Source of the DNA: a bacterium
Lineage (GTDB): Bacteria; Patescibacteriota; Saccharimonadia; Saccharimonadales; UBA4665
Reading direction: 5' to 3'
NCBI GenBank assembly: GCA_021799575.1
Contig: JAJZAD010000005.1
Coordinates: 1 to 64,000, forward strand
DNA length: 64,000 bases
Below are positions 18,599 to 46,741 of the stretch, piece by piece. The stretch's first letter is position 1. The number at the start of each line of letters is the position of its first letter. The translations under genes were made by a program, and so were the position numbers. The notes beneath the pieces are model-generated. The model was not told the origin of the DNA, did not search any database, and was given only the letters and a program-made list of their open reading frames with translations.

Positions 18599-19765
18599 TT
18601 ATTCGGCACAGGTACCCGTACTAACCGCGTGACTGTTTGGTGATGTCTGGTGTATGATGCGCGCCACTGGAGTAGTTACTAACGCATAACCAATATTGTT
18701 ATATTCGGTGGATTGGGCAAATACCACACCTACCACCGTGCCACTGGTGTTGATTAAGGGTCCGCCAGAGTTACCGGGTATGATAGTGGCTTCTACTTCG
18801 TAGACTTGTCGTACGGTTGATCCTTGGGCATAAATATTACTGCCTATGGCAGAAAACTCCTGTAGTACCTCCGCCATTCTAGCCTTAAAACTACCACCAC
18901 CAGGGTAGCCAAGTACGGCTGCGGGAGTGCCGTTGGCAACCGTGCCAGGGTCAACATTCAGAGCGGACTCGTTGAGGCCGTTAACTCTTAACAACGCCAG
19001 GTCAAGGTTGGGGTTAAAGTAAATTACCGTTCCGATATGATTGCCTTTAGTGTCTTCGACGTATGGCTGATTGATTCCGGCTACGACGTGAGCATTCGTT
19101 GCCACCACGTTGTTGCCGACTACGAATCCTGAGCCTTCCACCACACCGCCACAACCGTTGCCGACTATTTTTACTACCGAATCACGATCACTGTTAACGG
19201 CTGCAGCGAGTTCGCTAGTTGCTGGCAGTTTGGCCGAACCGGGAGGAGCCGGCTCCCCGCCGTTGAACACCCTAGGGAATCCATTGGGGTCGACTAAGTG
19301 GCTAAGATCGGCTATCACATTCGGGGCCGGCGGCAGATGGCGGTCCAAAGCCGACACGATCCTGGATGACTTTAGTTCGTTTTGCAACGATACATAAGGC
19401 AAACTTCTTAACACCGCCGCTCCTAGCCAGACACCGATCAGCACTGAAATAACTGACAATAATGAACCCAAGATGTTATCAAAACGATTAATCTTGGCTA
19501 AAACCAATTTGTGTTTTAAGAATATGCCGACATACTCTCCCACTACCAAAAAGATAATTGCCATGCCCAGAGTTGTCGCCAGGGTTATTAACGATCTACT
19601 AAGCTCGGTATGAGCTAACTTGACGGTATATGGCTCGATCAATACCCCAAGCAGTAAACCACCAAAAAAACCGATCGTAGAAAAAGCTTGTTGAACAAAG
19701 CCGATTTCCTTACCCCGGATAACGGCGCTAATAATCAACACAATAATGATTATGTCGACGATCAT
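18599..19765 (-). CDS. CvpA membrane domain fused to trypsin-like serine protease (MarP-like)
   Basis: N-terminal four-TM CvpA-like region; VATNAHVV, NLDLALLRV, IIPGNSGGPLI catalytic motifs. Confidence 0.85.
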   Translation of the reverse strand: MIVDIIIIVLIISAVIRGKEIGFVQQAFSTIGFFGGLLLGVLIEPYTVKLAHTELSRSLITLATTLGMAIIFLVVGEYVGIFLKHKLVLAKINRFDNILGSLLSVISVLIGVWLGAAVLRSLPYVSLQNELKSSRIVSALDRHLPPAPNVIADLSHLVDPNGFPRVFNGGEPAPPGSAKLPATSELAAAVNSDRDSVVKIVGNGCGGVVEGSGFVVGNNVVATNAHVVAGINQPYVEDTKGNHIGTVIYFNPNLDLALLRVNGLNESALNVDPGTVANGTPAAVLGYPGGGSFKARMAEVLQEFSAIGSNIYAQGSTVRQVYEVEATIIPGNSGGPLINTSGTVVGVVFAQSTEYNNIGYALVTTPVARIIHQTSPNSHAVSTGTCAE

Positions 19766-40639: not shown

Positions 40640-41530
40640 TTAAGACCTGGCCGCACGCTGTGGTATCAGCCTGGTAGCCAGATAAACGGCAAAAGCGGCA
40701 CTGACTATGAAAAAGCTTACCGGGTAAGCAACATAGTATGAGACGAACAGTCCAATCCAGGAAACGACCAGGGAAATAATTACCGATATGGTAATTCCCT
40801 GTAAAGGTCGGCCGGATATACGCTGCGCCGCGGCTGCGGGAGTTACCATTAAAGCGAAAATCAACAGCACGCCTACTACTTGAATCGCGATTGAAGTAGC
40901 AACCGCGATTAGCAGCATAAAGCAGATACTCATGCCCAGTATCGAAATGCCCCTCGCTTCTGCGACATCCTCATCTAACGAGGTAAATAATAGGCGTCTG
41001 TATAACAGTAAAGTTGCAATCAGGATTAGAATGCCGGCTATTAGCGTGATGTAAACATCTGTCGAACTGATACCGAGTATTTCACCGAATAATAGCGAAT
41101 AAGCCTCGGTCGCATAGCCTTTGTACAAGCTGATAAACAACACACCTAACCCGAGCATAAAGGCCAAGACGGTGCCGATCTGCACGTCACGGCTTGCCGC
41201 CTTACGTCCTAGCGCCGCCATCGCCAGCCCCCCACCGGAGGTAAATGCCAGCAAGCCGTAAATGGGGTTAACGCCGATTAAAGCCGCTCCTGCAGCCCCG
41301 GCAAAACCGACATGGCTTAAAGCGTGAGCGGCAAACGACAGACGGCGTATAACTACAAAGTAACCGACTACCCCGGCAACAATGGCAACAATAGTTCCGG
41401 CTTCAAAAGCATGCTGCATGAAAGCGTATTGCCACATTGATCTTAAATCTTGAGCTATATTCCAACTGAAAGCCGTATTGGATATTACGGCAAGACTACG
41501 AAGCATGGTGCATAGCCTCCTCAACTCCAA
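40640..41530 (-). CDS. Zn/Mn ABC transporter permease (ZnuB/TroC family)
   Basis: FAAHALSHVGFAGAAGAALIGVNP, VQVVGVLLIFALMVTPAAAA. Confidence 0.9.
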   Translation of the reverse strand: MELRRLCTMLRSLAVISNTAFSWNIAQDLRSMWQYAFMQHAFEAGTIVAIVAGVVGYFVVIRRLSFAAHALSHVGFAGAAGAALIGVNPIYGLLAFTSGGGLAMAALGRKAASRDVQIGTVLAFMLGLGVLFISLYKGYATEAYSLLFGEILGISSTDVYITLIAGILILIATLLLYRRLLFTSLDEDVAEARGISILGMSICFMLLIAVATSIAIQVVGVLLIFALMVTPAAAAQRISGRPLQGITISVIISLVVSWIGLFVSYYVAYPVSFFIVSAAFAVYLATRLIPQRAARS

Positions 41531-42287
41531 GTACCGCTAAACGACCGCGACTATCACGCAATACCTCTATCGGCGCGTCATAGAGGGCCGACAATGAAGA
41601 GCTGGTGACGACCTCATCCACTTTACCGCTGGCTATTTTGCCGTTGGCGATATAAATAATGCGTTCAACTACCGGCAGCAGCGGATTAATATCGTGAGCA
41701 ATCAATATGACTGCCATGTTATGAAGTTTAGCGACACTTTGGACAAGTTTAATCAGTTCGCTTTCGCGGCGAATGTCCAAATTGGCCAACGGCTCGTCCA
41801 GTAGCAGCAGATCCGGTTTACCTGCCAGAGCTTGGGCTAAAAATATTCGTTGTTGTTCTCCTCCGGATAATTCATTGAGTGGTTTATACGCCAAGTTTAG
41901 TGCGTCAACTTGTTCAAGCGACTTTAAGGCTTGATGCCGTTCTCTGGTAGCCTTCGCGGGGGAGCTAAACCCCCAGTTGTTGCCATAAGTCCCTAAGCGT
42001 ACGTATTCTAAAGCTTGAATTTTGGTTTCGCTGTCAATTGAACGCCGCTGCGGCACATAACCGATTCGCGGGTTGCCGCGTTCAGGAGGTTTGGAAAATA
42101 CTAACAGACTACCCGAAAAGGGTTGTTCTATACCGAGTAGTAATCTGAAAAGCGTCGTTTTGCCTGCCCCGTTTGCACCCAGTAAGCCGATAAATTCGCC
42201 GGGTTCAACTACAAAATTGGCATTATGCCAGATGGTCTTAAATTTAAACCCGGCTGATAAGTTTTCTGCTCTGATTAGTTCTGACAT
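41496..42287 (-). CDS. Zn/Mn ABC transporter ATP-binding protein
   Basis: GANGAGKTTLFRLL, ELSGGEQQRIFLAQALAGKPDLLLLDEPLANLD. Confidence 0.9.
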   Translation of the reverse strand: MSELIRAENLSAGFKFKTIWHNANFVVEPGEFIGLLGANGAGKTTLFRLLLGIEQPFSGSLLVFSKPPERGNPRIGYVPQRRSIDSETKIQALEYVRLGTYGNNWGFSSPAKATRERHQALKSLEQVDALNLAYKPLNELSGGEQQRIFLAQALAGKPDLLLLDEPLANLDIRRESELIKLVQSVAKLHNMAVILIAHDINPLLPVVERIIYIANGKIASGKVDEVVTSSSLSALYDAPIEVLRDSRGRLAVLGVEEAMHHAS

Positions 42288-42297
42288 TGCCTGTTTT

Positions 42298-43230
42298 TTA
42301 GGGACTCCTTTTGACGCTCATATTCAACGCATTCTCGATATTAATTATTTCTCCATTCATCCAGTTTTGAAAGCTGGTATTAGGCGGTTCGATGATTTCG
42401 CTAACGCCGACAATCGGTATATTGTTCGTTAGCGCTAAATCTTTCATATTGCTAGTTAACGGCGTGACGGTTTGAGTGTTATACACTAATAACTTAACTT
42501 GTCCGCTTTCAAGCTGCTGCTCGAATGTTACTACGCTACCGGCCGGGGGATCATTGCCTTCGGCTACGGCTTCGGTGAAAGCGGGAGGAGACACCAGGTT
42601 CAATCCGCTGGCTTGGGCCAGATAATAAAATATGTCTTCGGTAGCTGCTACCTTAACGCCCGAGAAATGCCGTTTGATATCTGCAATTCGATTTTGATAC
42701 GTTTTAAGTGATGTCATCAGTTTCTGATAATTTCCACTGAAGTAACTCTTGTTGTTAGGTTCAAGCCGGATAAGGTCCTGTAGGATTTGGTAGGTAACTT
42801 TATTCACATACATCGGACTGTACCAAAAATGCGGGTTATCCCCGTTTTTCTTACCCAGTAAACTGGCAACATCCAGTACTTGACGGGTGCTGCTAGGACT
42901 GGCGCTTAGTAGTTTATTGGCCCAGGAGTCATAACCGGCGCCGTTAATTATTACAAAGTTAGCAGTGGCGATTGCCCGGGCATCTGCGGTGTTGCTTTCA
43001 TATTCGTGTGGATCGGCATTAGGATCGGTAATAATGGATTTAACTTGAACTTGACTGCCGCCGATTTGCGAAGCCAGACTGCCCCAAAAATTCTCGGCAG
43101 CTACGATTTGCAACCGTCCGTTAGGATTAACAGTGGGAGTATTATTGTGGGTTGATGTGAAAAACGCAAATACAATTAATGCTACTACGATTATGATGCC
43201 TGATGCCCAGGCCATTTTTAATTTATTCAT
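42298..43230 (-). CDS. Zn/Mn ABC transporter substrate-binding protein (ZnuA/TroA family)
   Basis: AAENFWGSLASQIGG, DPNADPHEYESNTADARAIATANFVIINGAGYDSW, NPHFWYSP. Confidence 0.9.
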   Translation of the reverse strand: MNKLKMAWASGIIIVVALIVFAFFTSTHNNTPTVNPNGRLQIVAAENFWGSLASQIGGSQVQVKSIITDPNADPHEYESNTADARAIATANFVIINGAGYDSWANKLLSASPSSTRQVLDVASLLGKKNGDNPHFWYSPMYVNKVTYQILQDLIRLEPNNKSYFSGNYQKLMTSLKTYQNRIADIKRHFSGVKVAATEDIFYYLAQASGLNLVSPPAFTEAVAEGNDPPAGSVVTFEQQLESGQVKLLVYNTQTVTPLTSNMKDLALTNNIPIVGVSEIIEPPNTSFQNWMNGEIINIENALNMSVKRSP

Positions 43231-43297: not shown

Positions 43298-43741
43298 ATG
43301 AATTACGATAGTTATGAATTGCTTGAAAATACGCTTCGGCTTGGCGGCTATAGCGTTACTAAGCAGCGGCGATTAGTCTTCGAATTGCTGCTTAAGCATG
43401 AACCGCAAGCGATGCACGAATTATATGAACGTAGTATAGGACGTCTCGACAGAGCGAGCCTATATAGGATTATCGCGCTGTTTGAACGGTTGGGTATCGT
43501 CCAGAAACTGTCCATGGGTTGGAAGTATAAGCTGGAACTGTCGGATATGTTTACCGGCCATCATCACCATATCACCTGTCTTAAATGCGGACGGGTTATA
43601 CCTATAAAAGAAGACCTCTCAATTGAACGGTTTATAACCAGTATCGCGCAGAAACATCGCGTAAGTGCCGTTAAGCATCAATTGGAAATCCAGGGATATT
43701 GTAATTCTTGCCGAGAACATGATCACCCGCTAACTGTCTAA
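43298..43741 (+). CDS. Fur-family metalloregulator (Fur/Zur)
   Basis: GHHHHITCLKCGRVI and CNSCREHDH; winged helix N-terminus. Confidence 0.9.
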   Translation: MNYDSYELLENTLRLGGYSVTKQRRLVFELLLKHEPQAMHELYERSIGRLDRASLYRIIALFERLGIVQKLSMGWKYKLELSDMFTGHHHHITCLKCGRVIPIKEDLSIERFITSIAQKHRVSAVKHQLEIQGYCNSCREHDHPLTV

Positions 43742-43846: not shown

Positions 43847-44944
43847 TCAAAGATCTTTAGATAGACCGTTATTGAGCCAACGATGCCCTAGAACCGTGTA
43901 GCCGAAGGCTTCACCCAGAGCTAATTGGTTTAAAGACGAACTATCCAGGTCTCCTCGCGAGCGTATAGACGCAAGCTGTGCCAGTAAAACATTAGCTATC
44001 CCGAAATCGGTTTCGGCTAATTTAAAGTCTGAATAGTTTTCATGCGCCACTGTTGAATCACTTAGATGATCTTGTTTTCTCTCTGCAGTCAGGCGTACGC
44101 TTATACCAAATGAGTAGATAGCTTTGGCTGCGTCGGCGAGAATGCTATTGCTTGAGGCCACTTCGGTAAAGAAAATCGCTGCCCAATCATGGTATTCAAT
44201 TTTATTTGCAGAAGGCACTGTCTTAAAACCCATTGAGTGCACAAACTTATTGATCACAATTGGCCAGTCCACTTCCGGGTAGCTATTAGTCATGCTCTGT
44301 AAATTCTCTGGCCTGGAATTAAATTTACTATAGATGGCAACGGCTCCGATTCTCTCAATACTGGTCTGTAGTATTTTGGCAAAAACATGCATTTCTTTAC
44401 CGAGCGTAGATGGCGAGTCGATGGCTTCAGGTGTCCTAATGATTACCGGCAGGTCGGTTTGCTCTAGGTTTTTAGCTTCCAAATTAGATCCTATTTGTTT
44501 GAGCTCGGGTATGATCACCTGATCCCTGATATCCCTAATCTGCATAGCATAGGCAAGATCGTTTATATCTTCGCCGGTGACGCCAAAATTGATAATTTCT
44601 AGGTATGGTGCCAGTGGTTCATATTGCATCAGTTTAGTCTGCAGCCAGTTCCTTATCGCTTTAGAGTTATGTTTGGTTTTTTTCTCTATAACTTTGATTT
44701 GTTCGCTATCGGACACACTGAAGTTTTCGGCTAGCGAATTTAAAAAATCAATCATGTTGTCGCTGAAGCGCTCTATGTCCGGCAGAATCCCGCCACCCAG
44801 AGTGGCCAACCACCCTATTTCTATCTCAACCTGTCGTTTAATTAGTCCGTGCTCTGAAACGATAGCTGGTAGCATACCTAATTCATCAGCATAACGCCCA
44901 TCTAAAGACGTTATTGCCAATATCCGTTCCTGGGCCGTTCCCAT
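43847..44944 (-). CDS. PurB (adenylosuccinate lyase)-like protein with lost catalytic motifs; probable pseudoenzyme
   Basis: Aligns by eye with E. coli PurB (LDGRYAD, HGLIKRQVEIE, FGVTGEDINDLAYA, SPSTLGKEM, YPEVDW) but TH/GSSTMPHKVNP motifs replaced; 365 aa. Confidence 0.75.
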   Translation of the reverse strand: MGTAQERILAITSLDGRYADELGMLPAIVSEHGLIKRQVEIEIGWLATLGGGILPDIERFSDNMIDFLNSLAENFSVSDSEQIKVIEKKTKHNSKAIRNWLQTKLMQYEPLAPYLEIINFGVTGEDINDLAYAMQIRDIRDQVIIPELKQIGSNLEAKNLEQTDLPVIIRTPEAIDSPSTLGKEMHVFAKILQTSIERIGAVAIYSKFNSRPENLQSMTNSYPEVDWPIVINKFVHSMGFKTVPSANKIEYHDWAAIFFTEVASSNSILADAAKAIYSFGISVRLTAERKQDHLSDSTVAHENYSDFKLAETDFGIANVLLAQLASIRSRGDLDSSSLNQLALGEAFGYTVLGHRWLNNGLSKDL

Positions 44945-45052
44945 AATGTAGTGCCTAGTGTAGTATGCTTATAATTTGTCAGTCAACCGCACATGACACA
45001 GTTTAACGTTGTCTTTCGGTTATTTGTTCTGGTAAGTAGTTTCTAGTTTTTT

Positions 45053-46741
45053 TTATTCTTGGTGGATATATTTCCCTCCCCTCATCCAAGAAGCTACCGC
45101 TGCGACTACACAGGCAATGATCGCGAAACTAAGTACAATTACCAGCCCGTGTTTAAAGGGATTGCCGATAATTTGCGGAAAATACTCTTTAGACGTTAAG
45201 TGTGCGGCTGCACTTGGTTTCAGTTTAGATAAAACGCTAGGACCAAGCAGGCTTTTTAGTGGATTGTAGCCCAAGAAAGCTGCAAACAGGTAGCTGACGG
45301 CGGGTAGGTGCGAAAGATGGGAGGCTACGGTTGTAGAAACTCCACTGGTAGTCAGGGCGCGGTAAATACTTCCGGGCACAGAGGCTGTCAGCCCGATAAT
45401 CATGAGGGAGAAAAATATGCCGATAGATAACGGCATACCGACGTTTTGAAATGTCGCCCGCATACCTGACGCTGCGCCACGATGTTCAGACGGAACTGAG
45501 TTCATAATGCCTGCCGTATTTGGTGAGCTGAACATTCCGAATGAAAGTCCGTTAATGAGTAGGATAATTGCAAACAGCCAATATGGAAAATTAACCGGCA
45601 GTGTCATCATTAAGCCGAAACTGATTGCTGCCAGCACCATTCCTCCGGTGGCAAAAGGCCGGGCCCCGTATTTATCTGACAGAAAACCCGACAGCGGTCC
45701 GGCGATTAGAAATCCGGCCGTAGTCGGTAACATGTATATTCCTGCCCAGAGCGGTGTTTGAGCAAAAGCATAACCGTGTAGAGGCAGCCAGATACCCTGT
45801 AGCCACATGATTAACATAAACTGTAGTCCTCCTCTTCCGACGGCGGCAAGCAATCCGGCTATGTTACCGGCGGTAAATGCCCGAATACCAAACAGTTTCA
45901 AGTTGAACATGGGTTGCTTAACCTTGCTTTCTAACAGGATGAAGATTAAAAGTGCCACTAATCCGCCGCTAATTAGGCCGATGACCAGCGGATTGCCCCA
46001 ACCCATCGCCGAGGTGCCGTAAGGTTTAATGCCGTAAGTAATTCCGGTTAATAGCATAGCCAAACCAACGGCGAAAGTCGCGTTTCCGATCCAGTCGATT
46101 TTAGCCGGATGAAAAACGTCAATTTCTTTTAGTGCGACATACGACCAAACGATACCGATAATCCCGATAGGCACGTTGAATAAAAACACCCAGCGCCAGG
46201 AGAATTGAGCTAAAAAGCCTCCGACTAATATTCCGAGAAACGAGCCGGCCAGCATAGATATCTGATTAATACCTAAAGCCATGCCGCGTTGATCTTGCGG
46301 AAAAGCATCAGTTAAGATAGCGGCTGAATTTGCCATCAGCATTGCTCCGCCGACCGCTTGGACCATTCGGAAAATAATTAACTCGATAGCTCCGGCCGAG
46401 CCGTGACTCCAAGCTAAAGCTGCCCCAAGAGCGCCCAGAGTGAAAATAATAAACCCCAGGTTATACATTTTAACCCGACCGAACATATCCCCTAACCGGC
46501 CCAAGGTTACTACTAGAACCGCGGTTACCAGCATGTATCCCAGTAGTATCCATAACAGATATGAAAAGCTGCTGGCATTCAAGGGATTGATATGTATTCC
46601 CCGGAAGATAACTGGCAGGGCGATTATAAGACTGGTTGCATTTAAGGATGCCATTAGCATACCCAGCGTCGTATTAGACAGAGCTATCCACTTATAATGC
46701 GGACTTTGACGATCGGCGTGGCGCAAAATGTTACTGAGCAT
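45053..46741 (-). CDS. MFS transporter, DHA2/EmrB-QacA type (about 14 TM)
   Basis: LGRLGDMFGRVKMYN, QAVGGAMLMANSAAILTDAFP, GILVGGFLAQFSWRWVFLFNVPIG. Confidence 0.95.
   Translation of the reverse strand: MLSNILRHADRQSPHYKWIALSNTTLGMLMASLNATSLIIALPVIFRGIHINPLNASSFSYLLWILLGYMLVTAVLVVTLGRLGDMFGRVKMYNLGFIIFTLGALGAALAWSHGSAGAIELIIFRMVQAVGGAMLMANSAAILTDAFPQDQRGMALGINQISMLAGSFLGILVGGFLAQFSWRWVFLFNVPIGIIGIVWSYVALKEIDVFHPAKIDWIGNATFAVGLAMLLTGITYGIKPYGTSAMGWGNPLVIGLISGGLVALLIFILLESKVKQPMFNLKLFGIRAFTAGNIAGLLAAVGRGGLQFMLIMWLQGIWLPLHGYAFAQTPLWAGIYMLPTTAGFLIAGPLSGFLSDKYGARPFATGGMVLAAISFGLMMTLPVNFPYWLFAIILLINGLSFGMFSSPNTAGIMNSVPSEHRGAASGMRATFQNVGMPLSIGIFFSLMIIGLTASVPGSIYRALTTSGVSTTVASHLSHLPAVSYLFAAFLGYNPLKSLLGPSVLSKLKPSAAAHLTSKEYFPQIIGNPFKHGLVIVLSFAIIACVVAAVASWMRGGKYIHQE

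Follow-up and report, generated by a model that had tools for sequence, protein, structure and literature searches.

A candidate pseudoenzyme derived from adenylosuccinate lyase in a Saccharibacteria-like genome without a detected purine pathway

Introduction

Pseudoenzymes are usually recognised alongside an active paralogue. A precedent within the superfamily to which adenylosuccinate lyase (PurB) belongs is the delta-1 delta-crystallin of the bird lens, an inactive homologue of argininosuccinate lyase that is kept as a folded oligomer. It is a close duplicate of the active enzyme, with few changes and with all of the domains present. Enzymes of this aspartase/fumarase superfamily form tetramers in which three subunits contribute to each active site, and the PurB subunit has three domains, of which domain III is the carboxy-terminal one.

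For PurB itself, structures have assigned roles to individual residues: His171 probably serves as the acid, with Ser295 proposed as a base; a lysine contacts the succinyl group; N6 is positioned by a glutamine together with the GAVG loop; and the phosphate is held by arginine, serine and tyrosine residues (PMC2917274). In the S. aureus enzyme, domain II is made up of residues 94–349 and domain III of residues 350–431 (PMC2917274). In a survey of the Saccharimonadia, de novo nucleotide synthesis was found to be lacking (PMC12592800).

The gene described here is located in a stretch of 64,000 nucleotides (the window; contig JAJZAD010000005.1, positions 1 to 64,000) of a Saccharibacteria-like genome, available as a single draft assembly (GCA_021799575.1) of 805 kb in 16 contigs that is about 92% complete. 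The source organism is probably host-dependent. The gene encodes a PurB homologue in which catalytic residues and a whole domain are missing; the features of the locus are listed in Table 1.

Table 1. Position and description of the PurB-derived gene, its altered active-site segments and neighbouring features of the window.
Feature	Coordinates	Strand	Description
PurB-derived open reading frame	43847..44944	(-)	365 aa, domains I and II only, catalytic residues lost
TPEAIDSP, residues 171–178	44411..44434	(-)	equivalent of E. coli Thr170–Pro177 (THGQPATP); His171 replaced by Pro172
SRPEN, residues 210–214	44303..44317	(-)	equivalent of the conserved GATGN/GAVGN loop, E. coli 209–213
SDSTVAHENYSDF, residues 295–307	44024..44062	(-)	equivalent of the signature loop GSSTMPHKVNPIDF; Ser295 replaced by Asp296, Lys301 by Glu302; one-residue deletion
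IRSRGDLDSSS, residues 327–337	43934..43966	(-)	equivalent of SRLQRDLSDSS; preceded by a four-residue deletion; Arg335 replaced by Gly331
Possible promoter TTGACT-18-TACACT	44957..44986	(-)	12 bases before the ATG; weak match to the consensus
MFS transporter	45053..46741	(-)	same strand, upstream, 108 bases before the PurB-like gene
FUR-family regulator	43298..43741	(+)	convergent to the PurB-like gene, divergent from znuABC
znuABC zinc-uptake operon	40640..43230		divergent from the FUR-family regulator
Serine-protease-like homologue	18602..19714		35% identical to the protease of the gene trio found in relatives

Results

Family assignment and predicted fold

The open reading frame starts with ATG and continues for 365 amino acids with no internal stop codon. 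It matches the NCBIfam profile NF006764 with an E-value of 4e-74 (profile positions 4–366 of 456), the Pfam family Lyase_1 with 1e-13 and, in a phmmer comparison, E. coli PurB (PDB entry 2pts) with 8e-55. Homology to the PurB family spans most of its length, and the intact purB-like frame reported in a preliminary description of this DNA is borne out. By these matches, the predicted protein is a homologue of the E. coli-type adenylosuccinate lyase, although its score on NF006764 (249.6 bits) is below the curated equivalog cut-off of 446 bits. It can be aligned to the E. coli-type enzymes (NF006764; PDB entries 2pts, 2ptr, 4nsl and 7t24) over domains I and II, and shares the DGRY start motif with them.

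The alignment stops at the equivalent of residue 366, approximately, of the 456 of E. coli PurB. When the 247 bases past the stop codon were searched with a frameshift-tolerant alignment, no remnant of domain III was present. About 90 carboxy-terminal residues are absent, as had been claimed. According to the domain limits of S. aureus PurB and an AlphaFold2 model, the end of the reading frame coincides with the boundary between domains II and III. The model, built with an alignment of 36 relatives, has a mean pLDDT of 85 and a pTM of 0.86, with the eroded loops reaching a pLDDT of 54–67. It contains the central helical bundle of domain II that is the fold of the aspartase/fumarase superfamily, and its best structural matches are E. 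coli PurB (2pts, TM 0.86) and Salmonella PurB (TM 0.85). The alignment with intact relatives aided the prediction, and the model accordingly shows that the sequence is compatible with the PurB fold without proving it. Salmonella PurB entry 5e3v is a crystal structure of a truncated chain, which matches our protein as far as the equivalent of our residue 363. The entry is described as the truncation of an otherwise intact enzyme and does not represent a natural short form; its existence shows that a PurB chain of similar extent can fold.

Erosion of the active site

When aligned with intact PurB sequences, the protein shows three changed motifs. RTHGQPATPST reads RTPEAIDSPST; GSSTMPHKVNP reads SDSTVAHE-NYS, with one residue deleted; and SRLQRDLSDSS reads IRSRGDLDSSS, downstream of a deletion of four residues. 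The motif readings of the preliminary description, including the change of the catalytic histidine to proline (His171 to Pro172), are correct. For the signature loop, the loss of the motif stands, but the second serine of GSS and the histidine of PHK are retained. The reported loss of a catalytic serine also stands, with the precision that the residue in question is Ser295 in E. coli numbering, the equivalent of which is Asp296.

The erosion extends further than these motifs. Nine sites that are invariant in 48 of the 48 homologues of a second set are all replaced: His171 by Pro, Ser295 by Asp, Lys301 by Glu, Gln247 by Lys, Asp92 by Asn, Ser123 by Gly, Glu308 by Lys, Arg335 by Gly and Arg344 by Gln. 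The last seven of these replacements, and that of the likewise invariant Asn309 by Leu, come in addition to those described before. If a family-invariant column is defined as one at least 97% conserved among 41 intact homologues and E. coli PurB, there are 81 such columns. The protein retains the family residue in 36 of them; for intact sequences, each omitted in turn, the retained share is at least 91%. Equivalents of E. coli Arg15, Tyr16, His91, Thr122, Thr170, Ser296, His300, Asn303 and Ser340 are still present, as Arg17, Tyr18, His92, Thr123, Thr171, Ser297, His301, Asn303 and Ser336, respectively. As judged from the alignment, the phosphate-binding side is partly preserved (Arg17, Tyr18 and Ser336) while the chemistry is lost.

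Gone are the proposed acid and base, the substrate lysine, the N6-binding glutamine and the GATG loop, as well as domain III. These losses, and the genome content described below, give good support to the earlier conclusion that the protein cannot act as a normal lyase. From the sequence, it is close to certain that the PurB chemistry has been lost from this protein, and calling the gene a working PurB would be wrong.

The missing pathway

No other protein of the Lyase_1 superfamily, and with it no canonical PurB, was detected in the genome, using a search that was positive in 14 of 14 reference genomes. Adenylosuccinate synthetase (PurA) was not detected either (control positive in 14 of 14), nor was PurH (control positive in 12 of 14). 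In a genome that is 92% complete, a single gene may be missing because of a gap, but here both PurA and PurH are absent. PurA also went undetected in the eight other genomes of the genus tested. With neither PurA nor PurH detected, the substrate of the lyase, be it adenylosuccinate or SAICAR, should be absent.

Relatives and position in the tree

Orthologues were searched for in 18 other genomes of the genus, in the rest of the family and in wider draws from the order, class and phylum, and none was found. Scans of genome collections and viral sequences for orthologues returned intact PurBs alone, with an identity of 42% at best. The nearest sequence, with this 42% identity, is the PurB of a groundwater Candidatus Saccharibacteria metagenome-assembled genome (JACOWW010000002.1; L034, the same as L014, genome G159). 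It comes from the same order as the source genome, but from another Saccharibacteria family. In a tree of 48 sequences, our protein joins at this PurB, and its terminal branch, at 3.26 changes per column, is about nine times as long as the median of 0.38. Its tree neighbour, in contrast, retains the entire active site as well as domain III, is encoded near purH, and sits on a branch of 0.21 (versus 3.3). Given so long a branch, we are unsure of the position of our protein in the tree. It appears to be a rapidly evolving relative of a Saccharibacteria PurB whose function was probably in purine synthesis.

Two other readings were considered and rejected. For a phage origin, three phage records contain a PurB with 32–33% identity to our protein, and there is a match to a PHROG of unassigned function, but the intact Saccharibacteria sequence is nearer. 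A reading as part of a defence system was based on a weak model match (E=0.0014).

The Saccharimonadales have at least two types of PurB, with a patchy distribution: the E. coli type (L014, L003, L015, L016, L017 and L018) and a second type with the signature GSSTMAHKRNP, which is present in the family of the window (L005–L013). Saccharibacteria also contain PurB-HAD fusions of about 730 amino acids, which belong to the same superfamily and order as our protein and its source; one is from a genome of the same genus. They are located at L004:499-2688 (G008), L019:1123-3324 (G100) and L020:1105-3321 (G181), and the lyase signature is followed by an apparent HAD-type phosphatase domain (DAVLFDLDGTLHFGDKDEL). 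The fusions have the canonical GSSTMSHKIN, are about 26% identical to our protein and represent a separate PurB type. Genome G008 has its lyase-phosphatase fusion without a detected PurA.

Genomic context

The genes flanking the locus are shared with relatives. The MFS transporter is 79–88% identical in 13 of the 18 other genomes of the genus, and znuABC is 63–74% identical in relatives. What lies between them differs: in genomes G004 and G015, the stretch from znuA to the MFS gene contains a sigma-factor-like gene, a gene for a 105-residue protein and a serine-protease-like gene, where the source genome has the FUR-family gene and the PurB-like gene. In genome G009 this trio comes after the MFS gene, and other members of the genus have still different genes beyond it. 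With neighbours differing in this way among relatives, the PurB-like gene occupies a variable spot and is lineage-specific in the present data. The preliminary description had named an intact orthologue in this position as evidence against its proposal; none was seen when we looked for one, and close relatives hold other genes there.

Genomes G004 and G015 retain znuABC at the equivalent place, without the FUR-family regulator, homologues of which in the genus are merely 41–55% identical. In two relatives the conserved trio occupies this same position, at L122:7903-10929 and L125:9829-12826, and its protease is a membrane serine-protease-like protein. The sigma-factor-like gene and the 105-residue gene were not found in the 64-kb window, where the protease has the homologue listed in Table 1. 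Promoter-like matches in the region are not clearly more numerous than in shuffled sequence, and no riboswitch or other RNA was found.

Decay or retention

The preliminary description left two explanations for the intact frame, retention for another role or very recent decay. If the gene is a decaying remnant, a PurB useless without its pathway has drifted, and its frame is open by luck or because the decay is recent and partly adaptive. The lack of a detected purine pathway, the occurrence in one genome only, at a spot variable between relatives, the very long branch and the missing domain III are all consistent with this. However, in simulations of neutral drift to an equal loss of residues, a mean of 10.6–11.3 stop codons accumulated and none of the 120 runs remained free of stops, while the gene has none. 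Its in-frame coding score is 0.162 bits per codon, against 0.007 ± 0.034 expected after such drift, and both composition and coding score are like those of the neighbouring genes. Simple decay fits poorly, because drift predicts about ten stops and a coding bias near zero, neither of which is seen. The three insertions or deletions relative to homologues are all in frame. Core positions have stayed hydrophobic more often than drift would leave them, although this signal is weak (retention of 0.85 versus 0.73–0.75; z about 2).

Identity to the nearest relative was also compared by class of column. In invariant columns it is 0.49 for our protein, versus 0.91–0.99 for intact homologues; in intermediate columns it is 0.50 (versus 0.40–0.54) and in variable columns 0.27 (versus 0.15–0.32). 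We do not take this profile as a decisive sign of erosion confined to the active site, as uniform relaxation from an ancestor closer to the Saccharibacteria PurB gives a similar one. A compensated frameshift over the catalytic loop was likewise rejected. Read in a shifted frame, PEAIDS becomes HLKPST, to be compared with HGQPAT (p of 0.014 gene-wide and 0.002 for the block, which is suggestive only). This would mean past damage to the frame and would speak for a remnant. Compared as nucleotides, however, the shifted and the real frame are equally near to the Saccharibacteria PurB (8 of 21 each), which gives the shift no backing.

The part of the earlier statement that invoked decay therefore fits poorly, given the absence of stop codons and the preserved coding bias, and we moderately favour retention over decay. 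Late decay of the gene is possible, but overall we regard a decaying remnant as unlikely, if the most serious of the alternatives.

Discussion

The protein is, in our opinion, a retained pseudoenzyme, folded and catalytically dead, with a role in binding or as a scaffold; we hold this to be somewhat better than an even bet. In the sequence of events we propose, an E. coli-type PurB, related to the one encoded beside purH in another Saccharibacteria family, came to sit in a genome without a detected purine pathway. It would have lost catalysis and domain III, with domains I and II staying as a folded helical bundle, as the model predicts. The gene is presumably expressed, and its product would most likely act by binding and not by chemistry. 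One option is an oligomeric scaffold for a partner protein, which supposes both that oligomers form and that such a partner exists. Another is a putative sensor of a purine nucleotide, which would be bound through the remaining phosphate site. We propose such roles because Arg17, Tyr18 and Ser336 of that site, and also His92, survive.

Delta-crystallin offers a precedent for such a retention. Common to both would be an inactive member of the superfamily that is kept folded. Unlike the crystallin, our protein has a widely eroded active site, lacks domain III and has no active paralogue present in the genome. A more specific version of the proposal, in which the protein serves a purine-dependent episymbiont as a regulator or partner without catalysis, for instance as a sensor of purine nucleotides from the host or a modifier of the host PurB tetramer, we consider rather improbable as it stands.

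A new enzyme, with its active site rebuilt by adaptive changes for a different chemistry on the PurB scaffold, is slightly less probable again. Replacements at invariant sites that are milder than those produced by simulated drift (z about 2.5), the maintained frame and the preservation of His92, Thr123, Thr171, Ser297, His301 and Asn303 would be expected of it. All three active-site regions of the superfamily, including the loop of the catalytic serine, are altered together and domain III is missing, which makes an altered enzyme less likely than a dead binder; a single sequence also reveals no conserved new motif. That the gene is an artefact of assembly or binning, on a chimeric or error-laden contig, is highly improbable even for a single draft genome in 16 contigs with no orthologue found, as the flanks are typical of the genus, gene composition and coding score match the neighbours, and dozens of scattered in-frame replacements are unlike sequencing errors.

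A text search of the open-access literature found no study linking adenylosuccinate lyase with Saccharibacteria and no relevant earlier report of a bacterial PurB pseudoenzyme. The one lyase-superfamily protein detected in this reduced genome is dead, and the organism gives no indication of possessing the purine pathway in which the enzyme would work. If expressed, the retained pseudoenzyme would be a clean example of an enzyme fold outliving its reaction. Pathway predictions for Saccharibacteria rest on the presence of genes, and a PurB call at this locus would mislead them.
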